In this document: piece by piece, positions 1-36,846 of the stretch | How the letters are laid out: each line of letters begins with the position of its first letter | How positions within the stretch are numbered: position 1 is the first letter of the stretch | The notes under the pieces: model-generated | The model's database searches: none | Seen by the model: the letters and a program-made list of their open reading frames with translations, nothing else | Told to the model about the DNA's origin: nothing | From: a virus | Reading direction: 5' to 3' (one strand) | DNA: 45,981 bases | Virus record (IMG/VR): IMGVR_UViG_3300014493_000009 | Span: 1-45,981 of that record | Made by a program: the position numbers and the translations under genes

Positions 1-71
1 AACGACAACCGTGGCGGGAGGTCACAGCGGCCATGGATGCCGCACTGCATCTACTCCCCAAAACCCCGTAA
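1..71 (+). CDS. 3' end of an unidentified upstream gene (partial)
   Basis: The third frame is open from the window edge to a TAA at 69-71. It would encode about 22 C-terminal residues including WREVTAAMDAALHLL, which reads like the end of a helical protein. There is also an internal ATG at 33. With so little sequence no function can be assigned, and the frame could be open by chance. It is followed by about 60 bases that carry a promoter-like sequence for the terminase genes. Confidence 0.3.
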   Translation, partial: RQPWREVTAAMDAALHLLPKTP

Positions 72-93
72 TATCCACTCGCCTAACACTCAG

Positions 94-122
94 TTGCAAT
101 CCACTCCATCTTGTGTCATTAT
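94..122 (+). promoter_or_regulatory. Promoter-like sequence before the packaging operon
   Basis: TTGCAA at 94-99 and CATTAT at 117-122 are separated by 17 bases, resembling a sigma-70 -35/-10 pair. Transcription would start near 129-131, right at a GTG codon at 131 and 9 bases before the ATG at 140. The -35 side (TTGCAATCCAC) is nearly identical to the one at 8186 (TTGCATCCAC), which supports a shared promoter type. Inference only. Confidence 0.4.
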
Positions 123-139
123 CTCCTTTGGTGACACTT

Positions 140-721
140 ATGCCTGCAGGATTACCTAAAGACGAACCCCTCCGCTCACAAGAGGCCTTCACCGCCTATT
201 GTCAGCTCACTCCGGAGCAGCACGAGAAGCCGCTGGAGTGCTACGCCCTATTAGGCGCACGCTACCAGGCGCCGGTGAAATTGGTCGAATCGTGGGCCAA
301 GAAATACAAATGGTCCGACCGCCGCCGCCAATTCGAACAGACCGTCATGCAGAAGGTGCAGGAACGGGTTGTCGAGAACGCCGTCGAGACGAAACTATAC
401 TTTCACGACAAACTAACCACCTTGATTCGCCTATGGTTCACCACGCGCATGGCTGCGGAAAACTCCAGCGCCACCATCAACGCCATGCGCCCCGGCGACA
501 TCCGCGCGCTCATCGAGTTGGACCTCGACATCATGGGCGGCAAGGACATCAGCGATGCCCTCAAGGGGGTGAAGGAAGATGAGAAGGACGCCAAGGCCGC
601 GGTGAAGGTGCTGACGACGAAGGAACTTCAGAGTCTCGTGGCCATCGGGGATCAGGACCGCGCCAAGAATCAACCCGTGGCCTTACCGTCGGCCGGCCCG
701 ACCGGTACAGGGAATGCATAA
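140..721 (+). CDS. Terminase small subunit-like protein
   Basis: A 193-residue, mostly helical and charged protein lying directly upstream of the large terminase, the usual place of the small subunit that recognises phage DNA for packaging. Its N-terminal part (about 15-65) contains LECYALLGARYQAPVKLVESW, which resembles the helix-turn-helix of small terminases that act on recognition DNA, and is followed by KKYKWSDRRRQFEQ. The C-terminus is low in complexity. ATG 140 is chosen, but an in-frame GTG at 131 is possible because neither has a Shine-Dalgarno sequence and the promoter-like sequence at 94-122 would place the transcript start at about 130. The stop directly abuts the GTG of the next gene. 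Assignment rests mainly on position and general character. Confidence 0.6.
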   Translation: MPAGLPKDEPLRSQEAFTAYCQLTPEQHEKPLECYALLGARYQAPVKLVESWAKKYKWSDRRRQFEQTVMQKVQERVVENAVETKLYFHDKLTTLIRLWFTTRMAAENSSATINAMRPGDIRALIELDLDIMGGKDISDALKGVKEDEKDAKAAVKVLTTKELQSLVAIGDQDRAKNQPVALPSAGPTGTGNA

Positions 722-2371
722 GTGAAGAAGAAGATTGCAGCGAAAATTCGTGCGGCGGTATCGGGGCTGACGTCCACCGCAGCATCGGCTTCGACAGTGG
801 CAGCGGCAGCGGCAGCGGCAGCGACAGCAACCCCAACCTCGACCATCGCAGCCCATGAAATTCCTCCGCCGCGCGTTAATCCCATGCAGGTGCAGGCTGC
901 GCGGCAGGAGTTGGCCTCGCGCGAGTTAGTACCGTATGTGGAATTTGTGCACAAACCGGCGCTGTCCACGGCACGGCACATGGCGGAATGGGCCGACATC
1001 TTCATGCACCCGTCGAAGACGAAACCCCATACGTTGATCATCGCTCCTCCGGGGTCGTCGAAGACCAGTTGGAGCAGCAAATTCCTCCCCTGCTTTCTTA
1101 TCGGCCAGAACCCTGGACTGCATGTCGGCGTCGTGACCTCCACCGCCAAGCGCGCATGGAAGCTATCCCTCGCCTGCCGCGACACGGTCACGGAAGTTCC
1201 GGAGTATCAACAGGTGTTCCCGCATGTGCGGCCCAATAAGGCTAAAGGTTGGGCCCGTGATCAGTGGTTCGTCGAGCGTCCGCAAAAGGACGACCCCGAC
1301 CCAACGATGACTTCATGCGGACTCTTCGGCGATATCCTCGGGTCCCGATTGGACTTTTTGATCTTCGACGACATCTTTGACGAGGAGACGATTGGCAGCG
1401 ACACCCTCCGTGAGCGTGGACGCAAGTGGGTGCGCAATACGGCTATGACGCGGCTCGACCCGTCGAAGGGGCGTGCGGTTGCCATTTTGACGAGATGGAG
1501 TGGAGTCACTGAGGATCTCGTCGCCGAATTCGAGAAGGACAAGCGCTGGCAGATAATCAAGATGCCGGCGATCGGCTACTTCGGCGATGGGAACTCCTTG
1601 TGGCCTGACCGCCTGCCGCTACAGTTCCTATTAGATGAGCAGGAGCGGGACCCGCTGGGCTTCGAAGCGGTCTATCAAGGCAATCCATCCCTGGCGGAAG
1701 GCGATATTTTCAAGCGCGCCTGGTGGAAGTGGATGGATCTCGACGCCTGGCCCGATAAATTTGAGATGATCGTGCAGGCGTGGGACACCGCGTACAAGAA
1801 AGGGAAGAAGAATGACTATAGTTCATGCGTAACTCTTGGCATCCTGCGCGGCGGGATTTTCGTTCTCCACGTGCTGCGCGAGAAACTCACTTGGCCGGAG
1901 TTGGTCGAGGCGGCGAACAAACAGTTCTACGCTTTCCGCCCTCGCACGGTGTTGATTGAGGACTCGGCGAGCGGGCAGAGCTTGCTGCAACAGTTAAAAG
2001 TGCAGTCGGAGCCCATGATACCGGTGCATGAGTCGCAGCGCGGGCAGCAGGACAAGCGGTCCTTCGTATTGCCGGTGACAGGCTATGTCCAAGGCGGACG
2101 CGTATGGCTGCCGAAAGATGTGCCATGGGCGAAACGGTTCGTCTCCTCCCTGGGCAACTTCAACCCCGACCGTGAGCAGAAGGACGACGAAGTTTTGGCC
2201 TTCACTCACGGCATGTTATGGCTGACCAAATCAAAGTCCGTGTCGCTCACTCAGGATTGCCTGATTAAACCGTCGGGACTGAGTGAAAATGTAGGCAGCA
2301 TGGGGACGCGGTTTGCCACACAATTAGGACTCGGCGGTTCACCCGGGGGTTCATGGTTTGACCAAATGTAA
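722..2371 (+). CDS. Terminase large subunit (ATPase-nuclease)
   Basis: This is the packaging motor: it pumps DNA through the portal and cuts it. The 549 residues show a Walker A-like APPGSSKT (109-115, Lys114), a Walker B-like LDFLIFDD (210-217), and an RNase H-type nuclease with acidic residues in VQAWDTAY (Asp355), LIEDSASG (Asp414) and QKDDEVLAF (Asp488/489). It is of the Mu gp28/Terminase_6 kind. Residues about 20-40 are an alanine-rich low-complexity tract encoded partly by GGCAGC repeats. GTG start at 722 immediately follows the previous stop, so translation is probably coupled. The portal lies downstream, as usual. Length is normal for the family. Confidence 0.92.
   Translation: MKKKIAAKIRAAVSGLTSTAASASTVAAAAAAAATATPTSTIAAHEIPPPRVNPMQVQAARQELASRELVPYVEFVHKPALSTARHMAEWADIFMHPSKTKPHTLIIAPPGSSKTSWSSKFLPCFLIGQNPGLHVGVVTSTAKRAWKLSLACRDTVTEVPEYQQVFPHVRPNKAKGWARDQWFVERPQKDDPDPTMTSCGLFGDILGSRLDFLIFDDIFDEETIGSDTLRERGRKWVRNTAMTRLDPSKGRAVAILTRWSGVTEDLVAEFEKDKRWQIIKMPAIGYFGDGNSLWPDRLPLQFLLDEQERDPLGFEAVYQGNPSLAEGDIFKRAWWKWMDLDAWPDKFEMIVQAWDTAYKKGKKNDYSSCVTLGILRGGIFVLHVLREKLTWPELVEAANKQFYAFRPRTVLIEDSASGQSLLQQLKVQSEPMIPVHESQRGQQDKRSFVLPVTGYVQGGRVWLPKDVPWAKRFVSSLGNFNPDREQKDDEVLAFTHGMLWLTKSKSVSLTQDCLIKPSGLSENVGSMGTRFATQLGLGGSPGGSWFDQM
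799..828 (+). repeat. GGCAGC hexanucleotide microsatellite in the terminase gene
   Basis: Four tandem GGCAGC units plus one GACAGC variant encode part of an alanine run near the terminase N-terminus. Because the unit is six bases, slippage would add or remove two residues without shifting the frame. Confidence 0.85.
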
Positions 2372-2575: not shown

Positions 2576-4762
2576 ATGCCTGTCGACAACGTAATTGCCG
2601 CGCACTCCATGCCGGTCACGACTGTACAGCCGGTTAGTCCGGACCTACTGGCCGGTGGGTATCCGAAGTCCGCCAACGACGGCGCGACAGGTGGGTTCTT
2701 CAACAATATGTTTGGTGCGTTGCGGCGGATATTCCCCAATGGGCCACTGGCGGGGGAGTATGGCGTGAAGTCCTCACAGCCCGTGCTGAGTCCCTTTCAA
2801 GCCAACCCGGTGCCGGAGCCTCAGCCTACGCAGCGTCCGGCGCAGACCACGGCGCAGTTGGGGGGATCGGGCACACCAATCTATGCGGGTTTCGTGACCG
2901 ACCTTGGGGAATACAATGGCAAACTGCAGGGGAGCAGTGCGTTTCCTACCTATGAGAAAATGCGCCGGAGTGATCCGGATTGCCACGCCGGGATAAATGC
3001 GACGAAGCTGCCTATCAGGTGTGCGCAGTATCAAGTGATACCTGGAGTCACTCCTGCAAGTCCCCTGTATAACTTCGCCGTGGAAATTGCCGACATGGTA
3101 AGGGAGAATTTATTCGGCGGCCTGGAGACGATGTCATCGACGGGGTTTTATCACGGGCAGACCTTCGAGTCCGTGCTGGAGAATGCCCTGCTGTGCATTG
3201 ATTTTGGTTGCTCCTCCCATGAAATCCTCTGGCATGTCGACCAAGATAAGGTGAGAATCCGCAGGCTGGCGCCCATGCTCCCCATGACGTTCTTCCGTTT
3301 TTATCCCGACAAAGACGGGCAAATCCTGCTGGCGTTGGAGCAGTATGGTTACCGCGGCGACGAGTACGTGAATGTGATCATCCCATCCGAAAAGATCGAC
3401 TACTTCACTTACGATAAGGAAGGCAGCGATTTCTATGGGCGCAGCGCTCTACGCTACGCCTATGCTCCGTGGTGGGTAAAATCAAACCTGTGGCGACTGG
3501 ATAGCATCGCGATTGAACGCAATGGAATGGGGATCCCCCTCATCACGATGCCTGAGAATGCATCCGATGAGGACAAAGCTTCCGCCCAAGCATTCGTCAC
3601 TTCACTGGCTATTCATGAGCAGGTAGGCCTCACGCTCCCCTTCGGTTACGACTTCAAGCTGGTCGGCATGACGGGCCGTATCCGCGATCCGAAGGCATCC
3701 ATTCAGCATATGAGCGAGCAGATCCTGCGCTCCTTCCTCGCCCAGTTCCTCGCCTTCGGCACGACCGCCACCGGCAGCCGCTCCCTGTCTCAGGACATGT
3801 CCACCTTCTTTAAGTTGGGCCTCAACACTATCGCACGCGCTACCACCGGCACCATATCCAAGAGCTGCATTCGGCGCTTAGTCGACTTCAACTATGGCGA
3901 CTCCCGCAAGCAGATCCCCTACCCTCAGCTCATCCACTCCAACATCGCCGCGCTCGACCCGATGGAGTTGGCGGAGAAGATTAAAAATCTCAGCCAATGG
4001 CAAGTGGATCTCCTGCAACCCGACGATGAACTGGAAAACTGGTTCCGTCATGAATACGGATTGCCCGCCAAGACCAAGATGCGCGTTCGTTGGATGCCTG
4101 TTCAGACCCGCCTCATGGAGCAACCTGCTCCGGGCCTCACGCCGACGGAGATCGAAGCGGGGAAGGACCCTGGCGGCGCCCCGCCGGTTGTGGAGCCTAT
4201 CAATCCCACCGGCGGGCAGAATCCTCCGCACCCCGGCACTCCGGTTAAGCAGTCCTATGAGCCCGGCGTGCAGCCCAATCCGCACCGTGAGGAGGGAGCG
4301 AAGGTCAATCCGGTCGGCGGTGGCGGCCCGGCGGCGAGTATGAAGGCGGAGGAGACCGTGGAGTTGTGTCTCCTCCTGGCCGACAAGCAACCGGCCAGTC
4401 CAAAAATTGTAGTGTTCGACTTCGATGGAACCATTTCAATTTTCCCTGGGAAGAAACAACTCGACTACGTCCCGGGGAAATTCGGCGTGTGCAGTGAGAA
4501 TGCAAGGGAGTTGATGAAGCGGATCACCGCGGCGGGGATGAAGTGTGCAGTGGTCACGGCCCGCAAGGATATTGAGGATACAAAAGCGTGGATCAAGGCG
4601 CAGAAGCTCCCGGTGGTCAGCGTAGGAAATGAGAAGATTCCCTGCCTGATGAGCGTCGATGACAGAGGTTGCCACATTTCGTGGGGGGAGGACCTCGACC
4701 CCGCTGCCGTGTCGGCCGTGATGAAGGCGCTCAAGAAGATTATGAAGACACATGGAGATTAA
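2576..4762 (+). CDS. Portal protein (DUF935/Mu gp29-like) fused to a HAD-type phosphatase domain
   Basis: Residues about 85-520 look like a DUF935 portal, the ring through which DNA enters the head (for example YEKMRRSDPDCHAGINATK, GFYHGQTFESVLENAL and QILRSFLAQFLAFGTT). A proline/glycine-rich linker (about 535-590) leads into a complete HAD domain at about 608-728: motif I DFDGT (Asp615, Asp617), motif II threonine in VVTAR (Thr661), motif III lysine in NEKIP (Lys687) and motif IV acids in SVDDR (Asp695, Asp696). All four catalytic motifs are intact, so activity is plausible. The 728-residue length exceeds an ordinary portal of about 500. ATG 2576 is preceded by AAGAGGA. The frame is unbroken across both parts. 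Confidence 0.85.
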   Translation: MPVDNVIAAHSMPVTTVQPVSPDLLAGGYPKSANDGATGGFFNNMFGALRRIFPNGPLAGEYGVKSSQPVLSPFQANPVPEPQPTQRPAQTTAQLGGSGTPIYAGFVTDLGEYNGKLQGSSAFPTYEKMRRSDPDCHAGINATKLPIRCAQYQVIPGVTPASPLYNFAVEIADMVRENLFGGLETMSSTGFYHGQTFESVLENALLCIDFGCSSHEILWHVDQDKVRIRRLAPMLPMTFFRFYPDKDGQILLALEQYGYRGDEYVNVIIPSEKIDYFTYDKEGSDFYGRSALRYAYAPWWVKSNLWRLDSIAIERNGMGIPLITMPENASDEDKASAQAFVTSLAIHEQVGLTLPFGYDFKLVGMTGRIRDPKASIQHMSEQILRSFLAQFLAFGTTATGSRSLSQDMSTFFKLGLNTIARATTGTISKSCIRRLVDFNYGDSRKQIPYPQLIHSNIAALDPMELAEKIKNLSQWQVDLLQPDDELENWFRHEYGLPAKTKMRVRWMPVQTRLMEQPAPGLTPTEIEAGKDPGGAPPVVEPINPTGGQNPPHPGTPVKQSYEPGVQPNPHREEGAKVNPVGGGGPAASMKAEETVELCLLLADKQPASPKIVVFDFDGTISIFPGKKQLDYVPGKFGVCSENARELMKRITAAGMKCAVVTARKDIEDTKAWIKAQKLPVVSVGNEKIPCLMSVDDRGCHISWGEDLDPAAVSAVMKALKKIMKTHGD

Positions 4763-4799: not shown

Positions 4800-4985
4800 A
4801 TGCCCAGACCGTGCTTCTTTCCCGGATGTTATGCCCTAGAGAAACGTATTTACGATGCAGCAACCCCAGAGGATCGGATAACGATCGAGAGAGGTTATCT
4901 TCGATCACCATGGATTACACACTATACCCCTGAACCGGTAACCGCTACAGATGGAAATGAAAAGATCTTTCAGATCGGTAATTGA
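4800..4985 (+). CDS. Small hypothetical protein with CFFPGCY motif
   Basis: ATG 4800 has AAGGGGG five bases upstream (4788-4794), so it is preferred to the ATG at 4752 that overlaps the portal gene. The 61-residue product begins MPRPCFFPGCYALEKRIYD and continues with DAATPEDRITIERGYLRSPW. The C-x4-C pair could bind metal with another partner, but no second pair is present. It is the first of four small genes between portal and the next large gene. I do not recognise it. Confidence 0.65.
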   Translation: MPRPCFFPGCYALEKRIYDAATPEDRITIERGYLRSPWITHYTPEPVTATDGNEKIFQIGN

Positions 4986-4990
4986 TCCCT

Positions 4991-5182
4991 ATGTCCACAT
5001 GTGATACCGTATTCCCTGTGCAGCACTTCGCCGGAGTTGAACTCATCATCGACCCCTTCGCTTCCGACGGGGGCCCGTGGCGCAATCCACTACGGGTGGA
5101 CAGCTTTATCGTCAATCCCAAGGAGTGGGCGGAGATTCAGCGGCGGTTGGCGGAGATGCACGCGAAATCGAAGGAGGAGTAG
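4991..5182 (+). CDS. Small hypothetical protein
   Basis: A 63-residue product with a beta-rich N-terminal half (FAGVELIIDPFA) and a charged C-terminal helix (NPKEWAEIQRRLAEMHAKSKEE). The start could instead be TTG 4982, which overlaps the previous TGA; neither has a strong ribosome-binding site, so translation is probably coupled. The end of this gene supplies the strong AAGGAGGAG ribosome-binding site of its neighbour. Function unknown. Confidence 0.65.
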   Translation: MSTCDTVFPVQHFAGVELIIDPFASDGGPWRNPLRVDSFIVNPKEWAEIQRRLAEMHAKSKEE

Positions 5183-5185
5183 AAA

Positions 5186-5635
5186 ATGGTCGACGGTCGT
5201 TACTGTTTCGTCTGTCACGAATTCACCGAGGGTGACGCTCCATGCAAATGCCCCGACGGTACATCGCGGCGGCTTGATGTTGCCGATCCTGTAGAGGAGT
5301 TTACGGATCAGGTTGTATTGACCCGCAATGCTGATGGTGTTGTCGCGACTTGGGGTGCCCATTCCGGATTTGGTACCGATGAAGCTGAGGCGCTTGTCGT
5401 GCTGGCCAATAAACTCCGCGCTGGCAAGCTTTACCCCTGCGATTGCGGGCAGTTGGTATTCACCTTCTACGTGGCGCGTAGACTGCTGGCCCAGCCGGAT
5501 GTCGAGGAAGGTGGCTATCTTCGCTGCCACTATTGCTTCGCTGACGATGACAAGGGGGACGACTTGAAGTTGAATGGGAGTCAGGATCATCTGCAAGTGG
5601 AAGGTGGAGCAACCAGCGATGCACCCAAAAGTTGA
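5186..5635 (+). CDS. Hypothetical protein with paired cysteine knuckles
   Basis: 149 residues with cysteine pairs at both ends: CFVC and CKC near residues 7-22, then CDC and CHYC at about 76-116. Such an arrangement usually binds structural zinc. The core (TRNADGVVATWGAHSGFGTDE) looks beta-stranded. ATG 5186 follows a near-ideal AAGGAGGAG that overlaps the preceding stop, predicting strong translation. It overlaps the start of the next gene by 17 bases. The family is not recognised; it may be a small virion or host-interaction protein. Confidence 0.7.
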   Translation: MVDGRYCFVCHEFTEGDAPCKCPDGTSRRLDVADPVEEFTDQVVLTRNADGVVATWGAHSGFGTDEAEALVVLANKLRAGKLYPCDCGQLVFTFYVARRLLAQPDVEEGGYLRCHYCFADDDKGDDLKLNGSQDHLQVEGGATSDAPKS

Positions 5636-5978
5636 ACTCGCCATGAAGGTGCTGACGCTTCTCGCCGACCACGACACCTGTGAAGACGTGTGGTGGCGCA
5701 CGGACGGCGAGTATGCGCCCATAACCTTCATCGTCAACTGCAACGACTTATTTTACTGGGCCTGTGCAGACGCGGTGGAAATTACCGAGGACAACTTCCC
5801 CTTGATGGTGCAGGCGTACGGCGATGCGGACGCCATCAACTGCCCGGTATGGGCGGCTACACTATTCTGCACGCGCACCCGGGCGATGAGGCCGCAACCT
5901 CCGTGCTATAAGGGATTCCCGCAGGTGCTATGGCCCTTGCTCGACGAGTGCGGGCCGAAGCGGACGGCGGAGTTTTAG
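5619..5978 (+). CDS. Hypothetical acidic protein
   Basis: A 119-residue protein starting at ATG 5619, preceded by AAGGTGGAG. It reads VELAMKVLTLLADHDTCEDVWWRTDGEYAPITFIVNC in pieces, suggesting an N-terminal helix and then a beta-sheet core rich in tryptophan and cysteine. It is probably a globular cytoplasmic or virion-associated protein; there is no signal or membrane segment. I cannot name a family. It sits in the block of small genes between portal and the InPase/histidine phosphatase gene. Confidence 0.65.
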   Translation: MHPKVELAMKVLTLLADHDTCEDVWWRTDGEYAPITFIVNCNDLFYWACADAVEITEDNFPLMVQAYGDADAINCPVWAATLFCTRTRAMRPQPPCYKGFPQVLWPLLDECGPKRTAEF

Positions 5979-6029
5979 TTCAGTCCGAAGGTCGCATCAG
6001 CAGAAACACTACCGTTAAGGATCGACCCT

Positions 6030-7895
6030 ATGGAGCTAACACTTACCTGGGACGGCCAACTGACGCTCAGCGACGAGCCGTCCCAAGACGCTGTGTCGTG
6101 GAGCAAACCGTACCAGACGATGGTGCATGGTTTGCCTGTGTTCATCGAAAACCCGCGCGGCACGACGAGGTCCGGCAAAAACCGGGAGGGTACGCCGTGG
6201 TCGATCACCATGACGCATCACTACGGCCGCATCGAGAAGACGGCAGGATTTGACAATGAAGCCGTCGATGTCTTCATCGGCGACGATGCCGACTCGCAGG
6301 ATGTCCACGTCATCCGCACCCAAGACCCCATAACAAACACAATGGATGAAGAGAAGTGTGTGCTCTGCTGCCGCGATCCCGGCAAGGCGAAACAGATATT
6401 CTTGGACAACTATTCGGATAGCCGCTTCTATGGCGGTCAAACGCATATGACCATGGAGGAGTTTAAGCACTTCATCGGTTGGGCCGCCAAGCCGGACCTG
6501 CGACTCGCCGATAAACCGCCGCTGCCCCAAGTCCTACTGGTCCGCCATGCCCACGTGGCCGACAACGGCACCGACGACCCCTCCACTCAACTCGTCCGCG
6601 GCTCGCGCGATGTGGAGCCCGATGCTCAAGGGTTGGAGGAGGCGGAACGCATTGGTCGGGAATTCTCCGGCATGGCGATTGGCAAAATCTACACCTCCGG
6701 TAAACAGCGCGCACGGATCGTCGCCGATGCAATTAGCCGCGCCACAGGAGCGCCTGTCGAAGTAGACCCCGCACTGGAGTCTTGGGCCCGCGGCGAAATG
6801 GAGGGTTGTCCCGTCAGTGCCGTAATGGAGCGTATGCAATACTACGCTGAACATCCCGATGAAGTCCCGCCAGGCGGGGAGGCTCGCAACGCCTGGCTGC
6901 AGAAGTTCGGTGTGGATCTGAAGGCCAAGATGAATGAGACGGAGACTTCCGGCAAAATGATAGTTGGAGTTACACACCTGTCGAACATCATGGCGGTCCC
7001 GGCCATTGTCACCGGCGACACGGACCTGCTGCCCTTCCCCGGACAGAAGTTCAAAACCTGTGAAATGCTTGCCCTCACGAAGCCGGGCAAGGATTGGAAA
7101 TGGAAACGCTATGTCACCCTCAGCGATCGCCTCCAGCCTGTGGACTCCGCTGCCCATAAACGAGTCCTCGAATCCACTGCTCAACGAGTTCACGCAATAC
7201 TTCGAGACGCTGCTCCGGGAACTCGTGTGCTCGCAGGTGAGTATGTTCGCTCCTTTGGGTCGACCCCTCCCGCCACGGAACAGGGACTGGTGGAACTCAA
7301 TGACCTCCTCGGCGCTCGAATGCCGGTCGATGCGTCGCTAGCGAAATCCGTAGCGGATGCAGTCCGCCCCGCCTTCCTGTTCGGCCACGACGCGGTAATC
7401 CAGGAGTATGAAAAGGTGCAGGCGATGCCATCCCCTTGGCAAGACCCTCCGCAAGGATTCAATCCGGCCAACTTTCCCGCGCCCGCGATCGACGGGGGAA
7501 CGGAGCGTGTCTATGCTCCACTCGGCACCAATGTCGCACAGCCTACTCCGCCCGAGGGTCTGCAGGCGCCATGGGCACAATCCATTGCTGCAGTAGGTAA
7601 ACGTGGCGCTTTCGACTTTGCGGCATGGACATTGTCTCGGGAGATGTCGCAACTTCCCGAGGATTCGTACCCTGTGGGGTTGGATGGGCCGGATGAGCAG
7701 GAGTTTAATTTAGAGGCGGATATTCTGCAGAACGCCATGGCAAATTCCGGACTGCCACTCCGCCAGCTTGCCCGCGAGATTGCGCATCAGGCGCTGAACG
7801 AAGGTCGGCGGCAAGCGCTGAAGGAGCTGGGAAACAGAGTGTACTCGTTACAGCTTAGAGATGGCATTGTAACCGGAGAATACATATGCGCCTAG
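6030..7895 (+). CDS. Multidomain InPase-like / histidine phosphatase / MuF-like head protein
   Basis: Three regions can be read in 621 residues. Residues 1-155 resemble the InPase (inorganic pyrophosphatase-like) domain known from phage polyvalent proteins: ENPRGTTRSGKNREGTPW, EAVDVFIGDD and a final QTHMTMEEFKHFIGW. Residues about 168-345 are a histidine phosphatase (phosphoglycerate mutase-like) with LVRHAH (His173), SGKQRA, ESWARGEMEG (Glu250) and VTHLSN (His316), so the catalytic set is present. Residues about 500-621 are helical, ending HQALNEGRRQALKELGNRVYS, reminiscent of the MuF minor head protein but without its usual C-x2-C end. The place after the portal also fits MuF. AAGGA lies nine bases before ATG 6030. 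It may be a virion-carried enzyme. Confidence 0.75.
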   Translation: MELTLTWDGQLTLSDEPSQDAVSWSKPYQTMVHGLPVFIENPRGTTRSGKNREGTPWSITMTHHYGRIEKTAGFDNEAVDVFIGDDADSQDVHVIRTQDPITNTMDEEKCVLCCRDPGKAKQIFLDNYSDSRFYGGQTHMTMEEFKHFIGWAAKPDLRLADKPPLPQVLLVRHAHVADNGTDDPSTQLVRGSRDVEPDAQGLEEAERIGREFSGMAIGKIYTSGKQRARIVADAISRATGAPVEVDPALESWARGEMEGCPVSAVMERMQYYAEHPDEVPPGGEARNAWLQKFGVDLKAKMNETETSGKMIVGVTHLSNIMAVPAIVTGDTDLLPFPGQKFKTCEMLALTKPGKDWKWKRYVTLSDRLQPVDSAAHKRVLESTAQRVHAILRDAAPGTRVLAGEYVRSFGSTPPATEQGLVELNDLLGARMPVDASLAKSVADAVRPAFLFGHDAVIQEYEKVQAMPSPWQDPPQGFNPANFPAPAIDGGTERVYAPLGTNVAQPTPPEGLQAPWAQSIAAVGKRGAFDFAAWTLSREMSQLPEDSYPVGLDGPDEQEFNLEADILQNAMANSGLPLRQLAREIAHQALNEGRRQALKELGNRVYSLQLRDGIVTGEYICA

Positions 7896-8101
7896 TGAAG
7901 CACAATAAACTTGCGATGCCTCTACACAATCCACTTGTCGTCGCCCGATGCAGTGAGCGCGGCTGCCCATTCCCAGCAGAAGAGGGGCGGCAGTATTGCC
8001 GTCGATGCGGATTGATGCAGACGGAGCCCAGATACTTCCAGGGAACGTCTACGCTGGGTCAGGCGGAAATTCAATGGCAGTGTTTGATGAGCGAAAAGTA
8101 G
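7886..8101 (+). CDS. Zinc-ribbon-like microprotein
   Basis: 71 residues containing CSERGCPFPAEEGRQYCRRCG, a four-cysteine pattern typical of a zinc ribbon or knuckle. ATG 7886 has GGAG seven bases upstream and overlaps the previous gene by ten bases; an internal ATG at 7916 is a less likely start. Probably a DNA-, RNA- or protein-binding accessory factor, but the partner is unknown. It ends the first operon, followed by 120 bases containing the next promoter. Confidence 0.65.
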   Translation: MRLVKHNKLAMPLHNPLVVARCSERGCPFPAEEGRQYCRRCGLMQTEPRYFQGTSTLGQAEIQWQCLMSEK

Positions 8102-8221: not shown

Positions 8222-10411
8222 ATGAATGATTTGACGCTAAGTATTAACGTCAGCGGGACAATGCCGGCAGAAAACGTAGCGGCACTGTTATCCTCTGCGG
8301 GCGTCAAAGTCGCTCCAGTGCAGACCGATCCCGCACAATCCATCGTCGGCCCGCGGATGTTCGCACCCGGTGACACGCCGGTTGCCGCTCCCGTAGTGGA
8401 CGCTGCGCCTCTCGTGCCCCTCAGCGACGACGGCGACTACGCGACTGTCAGCGGCACGAAAGTCCACCGCAGCGACTTCGCCTACGCTCCGTCTGGCTCT
8501 AAGCCCAGCGAATGGAAGCTCCCCGTGCACGACAAAGATCATGCGCAAAATGCTCTCGCCCGGTTCAATCAAACCGACCTTCCCGCCGACGCCAAGAGCG
8601 GAGTACGGAGTAAGGTAATCGCCGCTGCCCACAAATACGGCATCGACACTGTCGGCTTCGAAAAGGAACACGCCGACAAAAACTCCGACGCCGGTCCACC
8701 CGCGACTCCCGATCTTGGCCCGCGCACCGAGCCCAATGCCGGCCAGGTTGCCCTGGCGGAAGCAACTGTCGCACCTGCGACAACGGATCGCGCGGGCCAC
8801 CTGTTCTGGCTTCTGTCTGAACTCGCGGCCATGCAAATGGACGGCAAGGAAGTGTACGAGCTGCCCATCGCCATGACCGGCACATGGGTCAAGGACGGCC
8901 GGCGCTTCAGCATCACCGACGAAGACCTGGACGACATGATCCGCAACTTCGAAGGCCGTGGAAACGGTCTGACCGTCGTCGACTATGAACACGCATCGGA
9001 GCAGCCGGAAGTGGCCCGCGGCGGCCCTGTGCCCGCAGCCGGGTGGCACCACAAATTAGCGAAGAAGCAGATCACCAACAAGAAGGGCAAGCTGCTGAAC
9101 GCTCTCACGGCGCTCATTGAGTTTACTCCCGAAGCGAAGCGTATGCTGGAAGCCGGTGAGTATAAATTTTTCTCTCCTGCCATCCAGTTCGACAAGCACG
9201 ACAAAGAGACGGGGGCCGCAATTGGGGCCTATTTGAACTCCGGCGCGCTCACCAACAAGCCCTTCCTGGAGGACTTGCCTCCCATCGTTTTATCCGACCT
9301 CGTATTATCTGGTTTACAGAGTGTGCACGTTGGTAGTACAATTGCTTTGTCGCCGGATTTCAGCAATGGGGCGCTTGCAGTACCCGCCGCCGGCAAAGAG
9401 ATGAGCGAGAAGGAAACCAAGAAGGAGCTGAAGCTCATGGCGAAGAAGATGAAGGCGAAGAAAATCATGGAAGGCCCGGACGCCGGCAAGTTCGGCATGT
9501 ATGGCGAGGATGGCGGCATCGTCAAGACCTTCCACAGTAAAAAGATGAACGACACCTTGGAGTCCATGGCGGAAGCCGACCGCGACGCCATGTGCTCGGA
9601 GATGTGCGACATGGGAGATTTGAAGTTGGGCGAGCCGGAAATGGCGGCTGGCGTAGGTGGAAACATTGTCGGAGGCGAGACCGTGGCTCCCAAGGCCCTG
9701 GCCGCGTCCGAAGTACCCGCACCTGCTGCCGCGGCTCCCGTAGCTGCATTACCTGTGGCAGAAATTATTCCCGCTGCACCGGCAACACCGGCGGCGATAC
9801 CCGCGAAAGGAATTGAGACCATGAGCGAAAAGAAAACCACCGCCGTATTGCTGAGCGAATGCATGAACACCGAGACCGGACGCCTGGATGTTGAAAAGGT
9901 GGTCAACCTCGCCGCGACTCAGCAAATCACCCCTGCCGAGGCGTCCAAGGCGACGACTCTGAATGAGACCGTTGCCGGCGCCGTGCAGAAGGGGATCTTC
10001 ACCCCGCAGCAGTTCGGGACCGCAATAGGTTGGGCGTTGAAAGACGAAGCCGGATTCAACAGCTTCGTTGCCACTGCCAAGCCGCAGATTGATCTGGAGT
10101 CGCATGGTGTGAGCCTGACGAATACTCAGGGGCAGACCCATGAGCAGATTGCACGCGCCGCGACACCCGAGGGCGCCTTCCTGAAGCTGACCGAGGAAAT
10201 CTACACTCAGGGCAAGGCTGCAAATCCTGCCTACAGGTATGAGGATGCTCTGTTGTCGGCGAGCCGCCGGGATCGTGCAGGCTTCGACAACTATCGCAAT
10301 GCCACGGTGAATCTGACTGATCGTCCGAAGGTCGCTTCACTGAATCTTGGCGAACGCTCGGTGTTGCAGAACACCCTGTCCGAGAGTCTCGGTCGTGTAC
10401 CGCTAACGTAA
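8222..10411 (+). CDS. Mu I-like capsid protease with C-terminal scaffold
   Basis: 729 residues. About 70-150 is a small helical domain common in phage proteins (EWKLPVHDKDHAQNALAR and SKVIAAAHKYGID). About 190-370 matches the Mu gpI prohead protease type (ELPIAMTGTWVKDGRRFSIT, GLTVVDYEHAS, FTPEAKRMLEAGEYKFFSPA), which matures the head by cleaving scaffold and capsid proteins. After an acidic/lysine-rich stretch and an alanine-proline linker (about 490-533), residues 534-729 look like a scaffold or internal head protein. The start at 8222 lacks a ribosome-binding site but fits a promoter directly upstream. The decoration and capsid genes follow, as in Mu-like phages. Confidence 0.82.
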   Translation: MNDLTLSINVSGTMPAENVAALLSSAGVKVAPVQTDPAQSIVGPRMFAPGDTPVAAPVVDAAPLVPLSDDGDYATVSGTKVHRSDFAYAPSGSKPSEWKLPVHDKDHAQNALARFNQTDLPADAKSGVRSKVIAAAHKYGIDTVGFEKEHADKNSDAGPPATPDLGPRTEPNAGQVALAEATVAPATTDRAGHLFWLLSELAAMQMDGKEVYELPIAMTGTWVKDGRRFSITDEDLDDMIRNFEGRGNGLTVVDYEHASEQPEVARGGPVPAAGWHHKLAKKQITNKKGKLLNALTALIEFTPEAKRMLEAGEYKFFSPAIQFDKHDKETGAAIGAYLNSGALTNKPFLEDLPPIVLSDLVLSGLQSVHVGSTIALSPDFSNGALAVPAAGKEMSEKETKKELKLMAKKMKAKKIMEGPDAGKFGMYGEDGGIVKTFHSKKMNDTLESMAEADRDAMCSEMCDMGDLKLGEPEMAAGVGGNIVGGETVAPKALAASEVPAPAAAAPVAALPVAEIIPAAPATPAAIPAKGIETMSEKKTTAVLLSECMNTETGRLDVEKVVNLAATQQITPAEASKATTLNETVAGAVQKGIFTPQQFGTAIGWALKDEAGFNSFVATAKPQIDLESHGVSLTNTQGQTHEQIARAATPEGAFLKLTEEIYTQGKAANPAYRYEDALLSASRRDRAGFDNYRNATVNLTDRPKVASLNLGERSVLQNTLSESLGRVPLT
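9821..10411 (+). other. Possible in-frame nested scaffold start
   Basis: Inside the protease gene, ATG 9821 (MSEKKTTAVLLSECM) follows AAAGG ten bases upstream, just after the alanine-proline linker. It would give a separate 196-residue scaffold. In Mu and lambda the scaffold is known to be translated from an in-frame start within the protease gene. A similar MSEKETK start exists at 9401 with a weaker ribosome-binding site. Confidence 0.45.
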
Positions 10412-11156: not shown

Positions 11157-12122
11157 ATGCCGTCATCTACACAGCAAGTACACGTAGACGCCGCCCTCAC
11201 GCAGATTTCGGTGGACTTCGCCAACGATAAGTTGGGTGGCTATGTCTCCGAAGGTGTGTGGCCGGTTGTCACTGTGCAGAATGCAAGCGATTTTGCATTC
11301 TTCATGTCCAAACAGAAACTGCGTCGGTACAATACGACCCTTGGGCCCGGTGCTGATTTTAACCGCCTGACGCTGGAATACGACAAGCGTCTGTGGTACT
11401 TCGCCGATGGGCACGGGGTGGAAGTTGCAATCCCGGACCAGATCCGTGCGAATGCCGACCCCGCGGCTCAACTCGACATCCAGAGCACCAAGCTGGCAAC
11501 CGAGACTATACTGATTGACCAGGAGTACAATCTGGCCGTCGGCTCCCTTGGGAGCAGCTCTGCCTTGACGGCTGCAGGTGTGACCTATGTCACATTGAGC
11601 GGTACCAATCAATGGTCCGATCAGACCAACAGCGATCCGCTGTCGGTGATCGATGCCGCGAAGATCACGATCGCCAATCAGTGTGCCGTCTACGGCAACG
11701 CCATGGTGATCAGCGACGCAGTGTATGTTGCGCTGCGCAACCACCCCCGCATTCGTGAATACTTCAAATACCCCGGTATGGCGATGAAGCCCCTCTCCGT
11801 CGACATGCTCCGCGAGTATTTCGGTTTGGAGTATCTGTTCGTCGGAGCCCCCCGCTACCAGACGGCAGTGGATGGAGCGGCGGACGCTTTGGCGCCCATC
11901 TGGGGAAAGAATGCCTACTTGTTCTACCGTCCTCCCAACCCGGGGCTGATGGAGCCGTCGTTCGGCTATACGTTCCTGTGGACCGGTCAGGGCTTCGGGC
12001 AGTTAGTGGCTCGTTACCGGGAGCAGTGGAAGACTCAGGACGTGATCCAATGTCAGAAATATTACGCGCAAGTCGTTGTAGTGCCCCAAGCTGCATACGC
12101 TTGGTTGAATGCCGTGGCATAA
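11157..12122 (+). CDS. Major capsid protein
   Basis: 321 residues with the features of an HK97-fold coat protein of the smaller Mu-like class: an N-terminal arm, KLRRYNTTLGPGADFNRLTLEYD, a central domain with YGNAMVISDAVYVALRNHPRIREYFKYPG, and a C-terminal REQWKTQDVIQCQKYYAQVVV. It follows the protease/scaffold and decoration genes and is followed by a terminator-like hairpin, as expected for a highly expressed coat gene. ATG 11157 has GAGG seven bases upstream. Assignment is based on position plus these patterns. Confidence 0.82.
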   Translation: MPSSTQQVHVDAALTQISVDFANDKLGGYVSEGVWPVVTVQNASDFAFFMSKQKLRRYNTTLGPGADFNRLTLEYDKRLWYFADGHGVEVAIPDQIRANADPAAQLDIQSTKLATETILIDQEYNLAVGSLGSSSALTAAGVTYVTLSGTNQWSDQTNSDPLSVIDAAKITIANQCAVYGNAMVISDAVYVALRNHPRIREYFKYPGMAMKPLSVDMLREYFGLEYLFVGAPRYQTAVDGAADALAPIWGKNAYLFYRPPNPGLMEPSFGYTFLWTGQGFGQLVARYREQWKTQDVIQCQKYYAQVVVVPQAAYAWLNAVA

Positions 12123-28070: not shown

Positions 28071-28097
28071 GTAGTCTGGGATTACCGGAGGTTGGAC

Positions 28098-31000
28098 ATG
28101 CTCGGATGGTTGCGGCGGGTGGTCGTGTTGACGGTGTTGCTGGCGGGGGCGTCCGGGGTGGCGCTGGGGCAGAACTTCACCGCGTTCTCCGCGTCTAACA
28201 TTCAGAACCTGCAGGGGACTCCGCTGGTGAGCGGCACCCTGTACATTCAGGGCACGGACCAAGTGAACACCCCGATCTCCTACCAGTGCGGCGGCGGCGG
28301 CCAAGTGGTCCGCACTCCCTACACGGCGAATATTACGTCCGGAGCTGTGGTCACCTTCAACGTCTGCAATCCGGCGAATACTTTGCCCGCCGGGATTTAC
28401 TACCATATTTGGGTGATCGACTTGACCACCGGGTCGTCCACGCTGAACCAGACGGTGCTGAACTACGGCCTCGTGCAGTGGACCGGAGCGACGTTCAACT
28501 TCGACGACTACACGCCCACTGCCAACACAGTAGCTCCGACCGGGTACAGCATCACGGGCAATTTGGGCGTCAACGGCAATATCAGCGTCACCGGCTCCAT
28601 CACCGGCACGGTGCTCAATACCGCCGGCCTGGGGGATAATTCGACAGTGATCGACGTGTCGGTCCAGGCGGGATCCACATGGGACGCGAAGTATGCCGCG
28701 GCGCAGGCGATATGCACCGGTATTTACAATAATTGCGTGTTTGACGCGCGGCGGTTGACGGGTACGCAGACCTTGGCGGCAACGGTTACTCCGCCGGAGA
28801 ACTCCACAACACTCTTTGGCATCATGAATATGACCGAATCATCCGGGGCCTACTTCAACCTTTACCGCCCCGGTGTACATCTGCACGGGCAGGGGAACGG
28901 GACATACTTCGTCAAGGCAAGCGCTTCCGACTTCACGCCGATATTTTATGTGGCCCCCGGGGAGATCTATGGAGGCATTGGGGGCAGTAGTGCTGAAATC
29001 GACCACGTGTTTACCGGCTACACGACATCCAGCGGCTCCATGATGCCCATTACATCTGTGGCGTCCACCTCCGCCACGACCATAACTATTACCGCGGCCG
29101 CGGCGGCGAACAGTTACGGATTGACCGTCTACTCCACAGCCTACTTCGCACAGGCGTCGGTGCCCGGCAATCAGTTCCTCATGACGATTACAGGGTTTAG
29201 TTCCCCGGCGACGGCGAACAACGGCTTATACTGGTGTATCGGATGGACGACCAGCACGATTACCTGCGAGAACCCGGGCGGCGTGGCGGCAACAGGAGCC
29301 TCTGCAACTGGCAGCATTGGGACGACGACCTACACCGGGACATTCACGGCCGTGCATCAACTCTATGGTACGGTCACGACTTCAGGCTCGACATTCACCC
29401 TGTCGCAGGGGCAATACTTCATCACGGGAAGCGTCTTGGTAGGACAGACAATTACCATTGGCGGAAGTCCTTACACGGTGGCGACAATTACCAATGCCTT
29501 GAGCGGCACAACGACCACCAGTATCGGGACGAATACTACCGCAGTTGCCTACTCGGTGCCGGATCCATCCTTCCCGGTTGCAACCTGCGCGACCAATGGC
29601 TGCCAGGGCTATGAGATGGGTGTGTTCCCTTACGCCACATCCTACACCAACGTCAATCAAGCGGCCTACGATTGGGGCTACGCGGCCGTAATTGCATCGA
29701 CGAGCACCACCATTACTCTCTCGCAGGGGCAGTCTCCGGGTTCAGGTTCAGTCAGTGCCTATGCGGTCCTCGCCGGCGGATGGGCGCTGAAAGGTCCGCT
29801 CTATCAGGCGAACATTCATGAGTTCAATACGTACACAACCGACCTTGGGATCGAAGTGTCCACGAGCGGGTGCAGTTGCTATAACAACTTCAGCTATGAC
29901 CAATTGGAGACGCAACATGGAGCGTTTTTCGTGGGCTTCAATGCGAACTCCGGAAACGTGAATAGCCTGTTGGCATGGGCGGGGGATGTGGGCACAGTTG
30001 GTTATCTGAATGCCACCGGATTTGCCGTTCGCATGGAAGGCGGCTCGGAGTGGCACTTCAAGGGTACAACCGACATTGAGAACACACGATACTCCGTGCA
30101 GGTGCGGTCACCTTATACATCTTTCGACAAGATTGCATTGGAGTGCGATAAATGTGTGAGCATTGGAACGTCCAATTTCAGTGGCCCTGCCAGCACCGGC
30201 ACGAGTTCCTTCCTGCCGACCATTTTGCCGTTGGCCCTTGCCGTAACTATTGGCGGTGCAGTGTCGGTCGTCGACTACAGTGGATCGAATATCCTCACGA
30301 GTAACATCTCTACGAATAGATTCGGCACACAGTCCCAGGCGCGGGACATCAATGTCAATCAGTACGGATCGGTCATTGTCCCGGGTTTGCCGACGCCGAA
30401 TTCGAACAATTTTGCACCGTCCCCTACCTGTGCCAGCGCTTGCTCGATGAACTACCAATACTACATGGTGGGGCGCGACTTCAACATGAACCCCACGCAG
30501 GTGTATACCCCGGCAACGGTGCCGAATAATGCGGCGCTTTCTACTGGAGTAAACTATAATACACTCAGTGGGACATACTCCCCCGCGGGCGCATACTGCT
30601 GGGATATCCTGAAAGGGGATACGTCCCACTCCCTCTACACTTGCGTGAAGAACGACCAGTCGCCGATGATCGACGACGGCAGTATTGCAACCGTGGCTTA
30701 CCCCCCTGCCGGGCAACTCGCGCCGCCAACGACAGGGAATTATACCTCCATGGTGGAGGCTGGTCAGGTGTTGGCCAATCAGGGCACCGCTTGCACGACG
30801 GGCGAATTGGCGCTCAGTAGCGGCTGGGGCACCAGTCCAACTGTCACGGCCGTCCACGGTTTGGGCCAAACCTGCCAATGGACGATTACCGCGGAGGCCA
30901 CAACGGGTGCTAACCCGACAATTACGGACACCCTGACTAATCCGCTCCCGACGGCCACTACGGTTTGTTGGGCCATGATGGTTGGCGGTACAGGCTCGTC

Positions 31001-31109
31001 CACAATGATTGCGCAGACGACACTCAGCGCTACGGCACCGGTGTTCACATTCAATGGGACTCCGACGGCTGCAGACACATACATTGTAGTCCGCACGTGT
31101 GGACCTTAA
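28098..31109 (+). CDS. Tailspike-like protein with Sec signal peptide
   Basis: 1003 residues. ATG 28098 (GGAGG seven bases upstream) gives a classical signal peptide: basic MLGWLRR, hydrophobic VVVLTVLLAGASG, cleavage near ALG/Q. The N-terminal part has FTAFSASNIQNLQGTPLVSG, followed by GNLGVNGNISVTGSITGT. From about 195 the chain resembles a parallel beta-helix spike (WDAKYAAAQAICTGIYNNCV, YRPGVHLHGQGNGTYF, then EFNTYTTDLGIEVSTSG and LNATGFAVRMEGGSEWHF). The Ig-like module shared with two other virion proteins is at about 330-405. A signal peptide is unexpected for a tail component. Could bind or degrade surface polysaccharide. Confidence 0.7.
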   Translation: MLGWLRRVVVLTVLLAGASGVALGQNFTAFSASNIQNLQGTPLVSGTLYIQGTDQVNTPISYQCGGGGQVVRTPYTANITSGAVVTFNVCNPANTLPAGIYYHIWVIDLTTGSSTLNQTVLNYGLVQWTGATFNFDDYTPTANTVAPTGYSITGNLGVNGNISVTGSITGTVLNTAGLGDNSTVIDVSVQAGSTWDAKYAAAQAICTGIYNNCVFDARRLTGTQTLAATVTPPENSTTLFGIMNMTESSGAYFNLYRPGVHLHGQGNGTYFVKASASDFTPIFYVAPGEIYGGIGGSSAEIDHVFTGYTTSSGSMMPITSVASTSATTITITAAAAANSYGLTVYSTAYFAQASVPGNQFLMTITGFSSPATANNGLYWCIGWTTSTITCENPGGVAATGASATGSIGTTTYTGTFTAVHQLYGTVTTSGSTFTLSQGQYFITGSVLVGQTITIGGSPYTVATITNALSGTTTTSIGTNTTAVAYSVPDPSFPVATCATNGCQGYEMGVFPYATSYTNVNQAAYDWGYAAVIASTSTTITLSQGQSPGSGSVSAYAVLAGGWALKGPLYQANIHEFNTYTTDLGIEVSTSGCSCYNNFSYDQLETQHGAFFVGFNANSGNVNSLLAWAGDVGTVGYLNATGFAVRMEGGSEWHFKGTTDIENTRYSVQVRSPYTSFDKIALECDKCVSIGTSNFSGPASTGTSSFLPTILPLALAVTIGGAVSVVDYSGSNILTSNISTNRFGTQSQARDINVNQYGSVIVPGLPTPNSNNFAPSPTCASACSMNYQYYMVGRDFNMNPTQVYTPATVPNNAALSTGVNYNTLSGTYSPAGAYCWDILKGDTSHSLYTCVKNDQSPMIDDGSIATVAYPPAGQLAPPTTGNYTSMVEAGQVLANQGTACTTGELALSSGWGTSPTVTAVHGLGQTCQWTITAEATTGANPTITDTLTNPLPTATTVCWAMMVGGTGSSTMIAQTTLSATAPVFTFNGTPTAADTYIVVRTCGP

Positions 31110-33268: not shown

Positions 33269-33784
33269 GGGAATTATATACTTAACTTCCTCAAGTAAAT
33301 AAAGGAGATAGAATGCCTCACAATGCGACAATGGCGGCAATGACTAGTTCCGAGTTTGAAGCATGGCAGACTCCCAAAGATTTGTTTGTCCGCTTGAATG
33401 AAGAGTTTAATTTCACATTGGACGCGGCAGCCAGCAAGGAAAACGCACTATGTAGTGAGTTTTTCACTGTCGAGGACGACGCCCTTTCTCTCTGCTGGAA
33501 AGGGCGTGTATTCTTAAATCCGCCGTATGGTAGACAAAAAACAGGAGATTTTGTACGCAAGGCGGTTGCCGAACGCGACAACGCGGAGGTAATAGTGGTG
33601 CTTGTTCCAAGCCGTACTGATACGCGCTGGTTCCACGACGTTGTGTATCAGCAAGCCGGTATTGATGTACGCTTCATTAAAGGTCGACTAAAATCTCCGG
33701 GGCGCAAGGTGCCATGGCCGTTCGCCTCCATGCTTATTGTGATTTATCCGACCCCAAAACGAGGAAGTTAAGTATATAATTCCC
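33269..33784 (+). mobile_element. Methyltransferase cassette with 24-bp terminal inverted repeats
   Basis: The 24 bases at 33269-33292 (beginning GGGAATTATATAC, ending AACTTCCTC) are the exact reverse complement of 33761-33784. Between them lies one gene, a DNA adenine methyltransferase; no transposase is present. The unit is 516 bp, flanked by AAATAAAA on both sides (33261-33268 and 33785-33792). The right repeat overlaps the last codons and stop of the gene. The simplest reading is a non-autonomous element mobilised by a transposase elsewhere. Removing the unit plus one direct repeat would leave the upstream gene intact. A purely regulatory inverted repeat is the alternative. Confidence 0.65.
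33313..33771 (+). CDS. Phage DNA N6-adenine methyltransferase (Dam family)
   Basis: 152 residues. It matches the phage Dam group: AWQTPKDLFVRLNEEFNFTLDAAAS, CSEFFTVEDDAL, WKGRVFLNPPYG with the catalytic NPPY (69-72), and VVLVPSRTDTRWFHDVVY. These enzymes transfer a methyl group from S-adenosylmethionine to adenine and often protect phage DNA from restriction. AAAGGAG precedes ATG 33313. Length is typical and no motif is missing. It is the only gene within the inverted-repeat cassette, and its composition is more AT-rich than the structural genes, pointing to separate origin. Confidence 0.88.
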   Translation: MPHNATMAAMTSSEFEAWQTPKDLFVRLNEEFNFTLDAAASKENALCSEFFTVEDDALSLCWKGRVFLNPPYGRQKTGDFVRKAVAERDNAEVIVVLVPSRTDTRWFHDVVYQQAGIDVRFIKGRLKSPGRKVPWPFASMLIVIYPTPKRGS

Positions 33785-34118: not shown

Positions 34119-34664
34119 ATGAAGAAAATGATTTTAGCAACTCTGCTCGCAAGTGTGATCTGGTTCTCAGCGTGCTCCACCCCCACCTGGGTCATAACGG
34201 GGGAAAACATCGCGGAGGCCGCGGTGCCGATCGCTGGTTCAATTCTCGACATTGTAGACCCGCCACTCGCCCCGGTCGTCACGCTGGTTGAAGGCGGCTT
34301 CACGGCCGTTGTCAACACGCTGAAGGCGTATCAAGCCGCACCTAATGCGACTACGCTTCAGGCCACTCAGTCCGCCTTCACTGCCCTGCAGGCTAATGAG
34401 GCTGCACTGGAAAAGGCCGCAGGCGCAACTCCTACTCTCGACGCCACGATCAATGGCGTGTTGGCCCTGGTCGCCCAAGCTGTGACGGAAATCGCAGCGC
34501 TGATTCCTCCGCCTACCGCAGGAGCTTTCGGGATTCACATCCATGGGCGGTCGAAGGGTATGAAGGCGAACGATTTCAAGAAGCAGTTTAATGCAATCAC
34601 CAAGGGCGATCCCCGCTTCGCCAAGCGTCAATTCCATTTGAATCCGGTTGCTCGCGTGCTCTAA
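34119..34664 (+). CDS. Lipoprotein
   Basis: 181 residues beginning MKKMILATLLASVIWFSAC, a signal peptide ending in a lipobox (FSAC) for lipid attachment at Cys19. The mature part is alanine- and threonine-rich and helical (LEGGF-like segments, ATTLQATQSAFTALQANEAA), with a basic C-terminus (KKQFNAITKGDPRFAKRQF). GGAGGA precedes ATG 34119. A lipoprotein outside the lysis genes of a phage often blocks superinfection or acts as an outer-membrane spanin; which applies here is not shown. A terminator follows. Confidence 0.7.
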   Translation: MKKMILATLLASVIWFSACSTPTWVITGENIAEAAVPIAGSILDIVDPPLAPVVTLVEGGFTAVVNTLKAYQAAPNATTLQATQSAFTALQANEAALEKAAGATPTLDATINGVLALVAQAVTEIAALIPPPTAGAFGIHIHGRSKGMKANDFKKQFNAITKGDPRFAKRQFHLNPVARVL

Positions 34665-36243: not shown

Positions 36244-36281
36244 TTGCTCGATATGACCGTTCAAGGGTACAATACCCTTGG
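36244..36281 (+). promoter_or_regulatory. Promoter with overlapping palindrome (possible operator)
   Basis: TTGCTC (36244-36249) and TACAAT (36268-36273) lie 18 bases apart. The -10 is in the centre of a perfect palindrome, CAAGGGTA-CAA-TACCCTTG (36262-36280), directly followed by the GGAGGG ribosome-binding site of the gene at 36295. A dimeric repressor there would block the operon of secreted proteins. Confidence 0.5.
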
Positions 36282-36294
36282 AGGGTTATATCCA

Positions 36295-36846
36295 ATGAAG
36301 AAACACCTGTCTCTGATCGCTTTGGTCGGAATCCTGCTATTTACCACTTCCGTCCCCAGTTTCCCTCAAGCCTATACCGACCCCTCCAAGCTGCCCCGCA
36401 CCTACAGCGCCGGCTTCTCCATCGCTTGCGGAGGCGCCGGCGATTGTGTCACTGTCACTCTAACTGCAGGGGGCAGCAACGTGACCGCCGTGCGGGAGTT
36501 GTGGATCTCCCAACCCTCCAGCAACGTGACGGTCTCTCTGATTCGCCGGAGCGCTTTGGACACTGGAGGCACGAGCACCACGGAGACCCTGGTTTCCAGC
36601 GACACCAACGATGCAGCGCCGAACACCATCGTCACGGCCTACACTGCCGCGCCGACGGCGGGTTCCACTACGGGTGGTGGGACATTCTTCAGCCTACCGA
36701 TCACCACTACGTCGACACTGGTCCGCGACTCCACCGTGTCGAACTATAAGCCGTTTCTGCTGCAAGGCGCCACACAGGTCTATGCGATCTACGTGAGTGG
36801 GGCGGCCACAGTGACGGTCAACTTGGTTGTCGTAGAAACCCCGTAA
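36295..36846 (+). CDS. Secreted beta-sandwich protein
   Basis: 183 residues. Signal peptide MKKHLSLIALVGILLFTTS with cleavage near SFPQA. The mature part is threonine/serine/valine-rich strands (VTVTLTAGGSNVTAVRELWI, VSLIRRSALDTGG, VTVNLVVVETP) and looks like a single beta-sandwich. GGAGGG lies nine bases before ATG 36295, behind the promoter at 36244-36281. It heads five consecutive signal-bearing genes. Possibly a fibre or surface-binding component; family not recognised. Confidence 0.65.
   Translation: MKKHLSLIALVGILLFTTSVPSFPQAYTDPSKLPRTYSAGFSIACGGAGDCVTVTLTAGGSNVTAVRELWISQPSSNVTVSLIRRSALDTGGTSTTETLVSSDTNDAAPNTIVTAYTAAPTAGSTTGGGTFFSLPITTTSTLVRDSTVSNYKPFLLQGATQVYAIYVSGAATVTVNLVVVETP

Follow-up and report, generated by a model that had tools for sequence, protein, structure and literature searches.

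A rare and recurrent fusion of a Mu/P23-45-type phage portal protein with a HAD phosphatase domain

Can the portal protein of a tailed phage carry a phosphatase of the HAD family in its own chain, and where would such an enzyme act? The question is raised by one gene in the IMG/VR record IMGVR_UViG_3300014493_000009, the whole of which (45,981 bases) was analysed in this study and is referred to as the window. The record derives from an uncultured phage, whose host was probably a soil acidobacterium. The head module lies at the start of the window, with all genes on the plus strand and in the order usual for a tailed phage. Its features are as follows.

11-721, plus strand: small terminase of the head module
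722-2371, plus strand: large terminase, TerL (PHROG 38 at 1.5e-77; PF17289)
2576-4762, plus strand: portal-HAD fusion gene, 728 aa in a single open frame (profile matches; GAGG at 2563-2566)
2849-4090, plus strand: portal core, residues ~92-505 (PF06074, PF21919, PHROG 113; P23-45/G20C, Bas63 and Mu portal structures; alignments)
4091-4393, plus strand: Pro/Gly-rich linker, residues ~506-606 (low pLDDT; sequence)
4348-4360, plus strand: possible internal ribosome binding site (GGAGG at 4348-4352) and start codon GTG 4358 (site strength among internal starts)
4394-4759, plus strand: small HAD phosphatase domain, residues ~607-728 (PHROG 1238/415, alignment, PDB profile matches)
6030-7895, plus strand: protein with InPase (residues 29-149; PF18823 at 1.7e-32) and histidine-phosphatase (residues 168-359; PF00300 at 8.5e-17) domains
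8222-10411, plus strand: Mu I-like head maturation protease (PF10123 at 2.7e-26; PHROG 328 at 2e-26)
11157-12122, plus strand: major capsid protein (PHROG 1005 at 8.7e-66; PF03864)

A first-pass annotation of the window had described the gene at 2576-4762 as an unbroken frame joining a DUF935-like portal to an intact HAD phosphatase, and this description was borne out. The frame runs for 728 codons uninterrupted by any stop, its GAGG lies 9 nt ahead of ATG 2576, and GC3 stays at 0.63-0.76 along the whole gene, the HAD part included. Residues 125-496 match Portal_Mu (PF06074) at 8.5e-41, and the P23-45 portal family (PF21919) is matched at 1.1e-13, both above the curated cut-offs; the match of the portal part to PHROG 113 is 2e-53. 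An AlphaFold model of the whole 728-aa protein was built on 60 relatives, and Foldseek searches with this model returned about 30 solved portals, among them those of Bas63, P7-1, G20C/P23-45 and Mu, with E-values from 5e-20 to 1e-8 over 390-450 columns. Residues ~92-505 of the product are a Mu/P23-45-type portal. The position of the gene, between TerL and the protease and capsid genes, is that expected of such a portal, and small genes fill the stretch from its end to the InPase gene at 6030. The proline/glycine linker noted earlier between portal and HAD is present, and its extent was corrected to residues ~506-606; it is Pro/Gly-rich and disordered, with pLDDT below 50 over residues 523-589 of the model. 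The portal tail of the window matched neither PF04233 nor any other MuF profile.

The HAD part matches PHROG 415 at 3.6e-7 and PHROG 1238 at 4.3e-7. Its catalytic motifs are complete (motif I, D615/D617; II, T661 with R663; III, K687; IV, D695/D696), and a residue check found the motif numbering of the first-pass annotation to be exact. In an alignment of six HADs, comprising that of the window and those of five other phages, D615, D617, R663, K687, D695, D696 and R697 are invariant and position 661 is T or S. When the profile of these six was compared with the PDB, the E-values were 1.8e-8 for 1xpj and 4e-5 to 2e-4 for polynucleotide kinases. The window HAD scored below the curated cut-offs of PF25109 and HAD-SF-IIIA, and membership of the PNKP-type HADs (Pfam HAD_PNKP) was rejected, since its scores of 18.5-22.9 bits fall short of the 27.6 bits required. 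A model of the HAD alone has a strand-helix order that fits the Rossmannoid HAD fold, but its pLDDT is 50 and it gave no significant Foldseek match. The domain is probably an active phosphatase.

Elsewhere in phages this HAD family is found stand-alone or fused to kinases. The PHROG 1238/415 HADs and the 3'-phosphatases of T4-type polynucleotide kinases (PNK; PDB 1LTQ, 5UJ0) share with the window HAD the motifs DxDG(T/V), (T/S)xR, K and DDR and are likewise small cap-less domains; unlike it, they occur stand-alone or kinase-fused among genes of nucleic-acid metabolism. A further setting is provided by gp273 of the acidobacterial jumbo phage Tunturi_5, in which the HAD comes first in a protein of the order HAD-NUDIX-ART-PolyVal-GNAT. 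It resembles the window gene in its HAD family and in being encoded near a head gene, and differs in being a polyvalent protein of many domains rather than a portal. The gp273 gene (L203:10803-15272) adjoins a minor head protein and is annotated only as a MutT/NUDIX hydrolase.

Phage records contained nothing close to the protein as a whole, and identity over the portal reached at most ~33%. Alignment scans of viral contigs retrieved portals up to ~50% identical, and in scans of bacterial genomes the nearest prophage portals were in Acidobacteria/Terriglobia assemblies. One of the viral contigs, L109, repeats the architecture, so that the search for the same fusion, which had been proposed as a check, yielded a second case. 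In L109 the portal is followed by a linker beginning PVQTRLME and by a HAD (residues 940-1051, PHROG 1238) that keeps every motif and is 27-28% identical to that of the window; the first 30 residues of the window linker resemble the L109 linker (PVQTRLME...EIE). As L109 is an independent phage that shares both the fusion and the start of the linker, an assembly or frameshift artefact was rejected as the origin of the window gene, and the profile scores together with this second arrangement exclude chance as the source of the portal-HAD reading. With the HADs of the window and of L109 as queries, L109 itself was the only close HAD relative in the viral contigs; 396 acidobacterial genomes contained no additional portal-HAD fusion. 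A DNA search for the PVQTRLME motif found the contig of L109 and one other stretch, in the 317-kb contig L209. The L109 portal gene (4917-8075) also bears a LAGLIDADG intein at residues ~264-606, and an intein-like insert is present in the large terminase of L109 as well (L109:1117-3798).

A census of the tails of 165 distinct portals, all complete at the 3' end, gave 81 that were short, 68 that were MuF-like, 14 that were long and of other kinds, and 2 with HAD. At least one of the long-tailed portals, that of L036, belongs to the same Pfam family and carries NUDIX. The portal-HAD fusion is real, rare (2/165) and recurrent, and the C-terminal slot of a single portal family is shown to hold MuF, HAD, NUDIX or nothing, a case of one family swapping its C-terminal module. 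When a tree was built from portal cores, one small clade of four members (support 95/89) united the window and L109 with two portals that bear MuF; that the HAD fusion arose only once was neither demonstrated nor rejected (AU p = 0.26). The portal-MuF fusions (68/165, PF04233) have the same portal, the same Pro-rich linker and an extra domain in the same place; where they have MuF the window has HAD, and its faint MuF resemblance is in a separate gene. Because this slot is otherwise taken by MuF, a structural head domain, the HAD might be a purely structural passenger that holds internal proteins or scaffold, its motifs being kept by chance. Such a role appears highly improbable, as both fusions retain every catalytic residue although their domains are only 27% identical elsewhere. 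Two giant portals of 1,700-1,900 aa were also noted on actinophage-like contigs (L036:5977-11178 and L071:1995-7796); the NUDIX of L036 and a faint PI3/PI4-kinase-like match in L071 lie far downstream of the portal core.

Enzymes tied to phage head proteins have been described previously. Iyer et al. (2017) described fusions of many enzymes to MuF and of InPase, PBECR and 2H to portal domains, and proposed that such proteins are packaged and injected (PMC5512222); fusions of NUDIX to MuF, portal and head protease, and of 2H to MuF or portal, are also on record (PMC9503650). The portal fusions among them, such as the portal-InPase of Burkholderia phage BcepF1 (gp124), share with the window gene a portal with a C-terminal enzyme in the head module, and their enzymes are mostly phosphoester hydrolases, as here. 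They differ in that the enzymes joined are others, the one in the window being a HAD phosphatase. As in that class, enzyme and head protein form one polypeptide encoded among late genes. The earlier statement that no portal-HAD fusion had been described holds for the literature searched, since such a fusion is named in neither PMC5512222 nor PMC9503650, nor in a literature search of limited scope; its wider claim to novelty does not, and the novelty is smaller than first thought because these sister fusions were already published. What is added is a HAD phosphatase, as a further member of the small set of enzymes joined directly to the portal by phages.

Separate translation of the HAD part, which would speak against a fusion, had been suggested from ATG 4340. 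This codon was rejected as a start, being without a Shine-Dalgarno site at proper spacing. The idea survives in part at GTG 4358, a codon ~15 codons upstream of where the first HAD strand begins, which has GGAGG exactly 5 nt ahead of it, so that a separate HAD product alongside the fusion is possible from the sequence of the site. The duplex energy is -9.5 there against -5.8 at the portal's own start, and sites as strong precede only 6 of the 418 internal in-frame ATG/GTG codons of large genes. Since stand-alone members of this HAD family occur in phages, it could be argued that the HAD functions chiefly as a free 134-aa protein started at GTG 4358 and that the fusion merely nests one gene in another. 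However, the GAG-GAG codons of a Glu-Glu pair yield GGAGG by themselves (given about three start-like codons in this part of the gene, a chance of ~4%), no site of similar strength precedes the HAD in L109, and, as no stop separates the domains, the fusion is made each time the portal is made. We consider the nested arrangement quite unlikely, and have very little doubt that portal and HAD form one polypeptide. There is a slim prospect that both forms matter, the portal ring being a multi-site phosphatase in the head and the free HAD from GTG 4358 acting at a different stage; if so, virion-bound and soluble forms could, for instance, clear phosphates of nucleotides or nucleic acids at ejection and during replication.

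The C-terminal crown of portals faces the head lumen, inside the capsid, and MuF proteins also bind at the lumen side. Since portal C-termini are so oriented, the HAD of the fusion very likely resides in the head lumen. The first-pass annotation had placed it at the head-facing or the surface end of the ring; the head-facing placement agrees with portal orientation and with the MuF domains in the same slot (68/165), while the surface placement found no support. Up to twelve HAD domains would then project from the crown into the lumen, where the HAD would be an accessory virion enzyme of the class that includes the portal- and MuF-fused InPase, NUDIX and 2H domains. The reading of the whole protein as a portal with a catalytically intact HAD on a flexible C-terminal tether, acting as an accessory virion enzyme, we regard as evenly poised. 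Besides the domain and motif matches, the recurrence in L109, the NUDIX-bearing portal of L036, Tunturi_5 gp273 and the published portal-enzyme fusions were counted in its favour; the divergence of the HAD (27% identity to that of L109), its poor individual model and the rarity of the fusion were counted against it.

Because the nearest profiles are polynucleotide-kinase 3'-phosphatases and PHROG 1238, the domain would most plausibly take a terminal phosphate off a nucleotide or a nucleic-acid end, and from these sequence resemblances we see an even chance that the substrate is a nucleotide or nucleic acid. A cap-less HAD can accept large substrates, and the domain would adjoin packaged DNA; together with the kinase-type profiles, this lends some appeal to the earlier suggestion that the enzyme, sitting at the portal, trims the ends of DNA as it is packaged. 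That role has a very low probability, in that terminase makes the packaging ends, for which no need of dephosphorylation is known, 163 of the 165 portals are without HAD and their phages still package, and no ligase or kinase adjoins the gene.

An accessory virion enzyme of this kind might act in the early infected cell, having been freed by the head protease or in the course of ejection; alternatively, it might act in the producing cell, which holds plenty of unassembled portal. A HAD tethered to the portal is not injectable unless it is cut off, which counts against delivery, and no cut site is known. Delivery into the host, as proposed for other head-fused enzymes, is regarded as doubtful. 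The first-pass suggestion that the enzyme destroys a host nucleotide signal on entry found no support in the analysis. A specific form of it, which we think unlikely, is that the head maturation protease cuts the linker and that the HAD, packaged loose, enters the host together with the DNA and serves as an early effector, in the manner of polyvalent proteins. The Mu I-like protease in the same module, the long disordered linker, the injection proposed for portal- and MuF-fused enzymes (PMC5512222, PMC9503650) and the HAD of the same family in the polyvalent protein of Tunturi_5 are in its favour; yet no cleavage site is known, the structural MuF on other long-tailed portals argues for a HAD that stays attached, and the narrow portal channel would require unfolding. 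If the HAD is active in virions, the fusion would offer a straightforward way of learning whether enzymes bound to the portal remain in the head or are delivered to the host, on which the only answers to date have been deduced from gene fusions.

Two further phosphate-cleaving domains, InPase and histidine phosphatase, share one protein of the window's head module. This protein (6030-7895) occupies the minor-head slot, two to three genes downstream of the portal-HAD gene, and its C-terminus has two faint, co-linear MuF-like matches that end before the CxxC half. It is not conserved in the relatives. Its nearness to the fusion gene was weighed in favour of the accessory-enzyme reading, and this lack of conservation against it.

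Among the other genes of the window, N-termini resembling Sec signal peptides were recognised by eye at 28092-31109, 34119-34664, 36244-36846, 36858-41900, 41885-42712 and 42709-44193, the last of which also encodes an apiosidase-like glycoside hydrolase domain (PF13204 at 1.2e-49); similar leaders are present in L109 at 8103 and ~8942. The gene at 33313-33771 encodes a Dam-type DNA N6-adenine methyltransferase (PF05869 at 1.6e-27), and its GC3 of 0.49 is below that of the structural genes.
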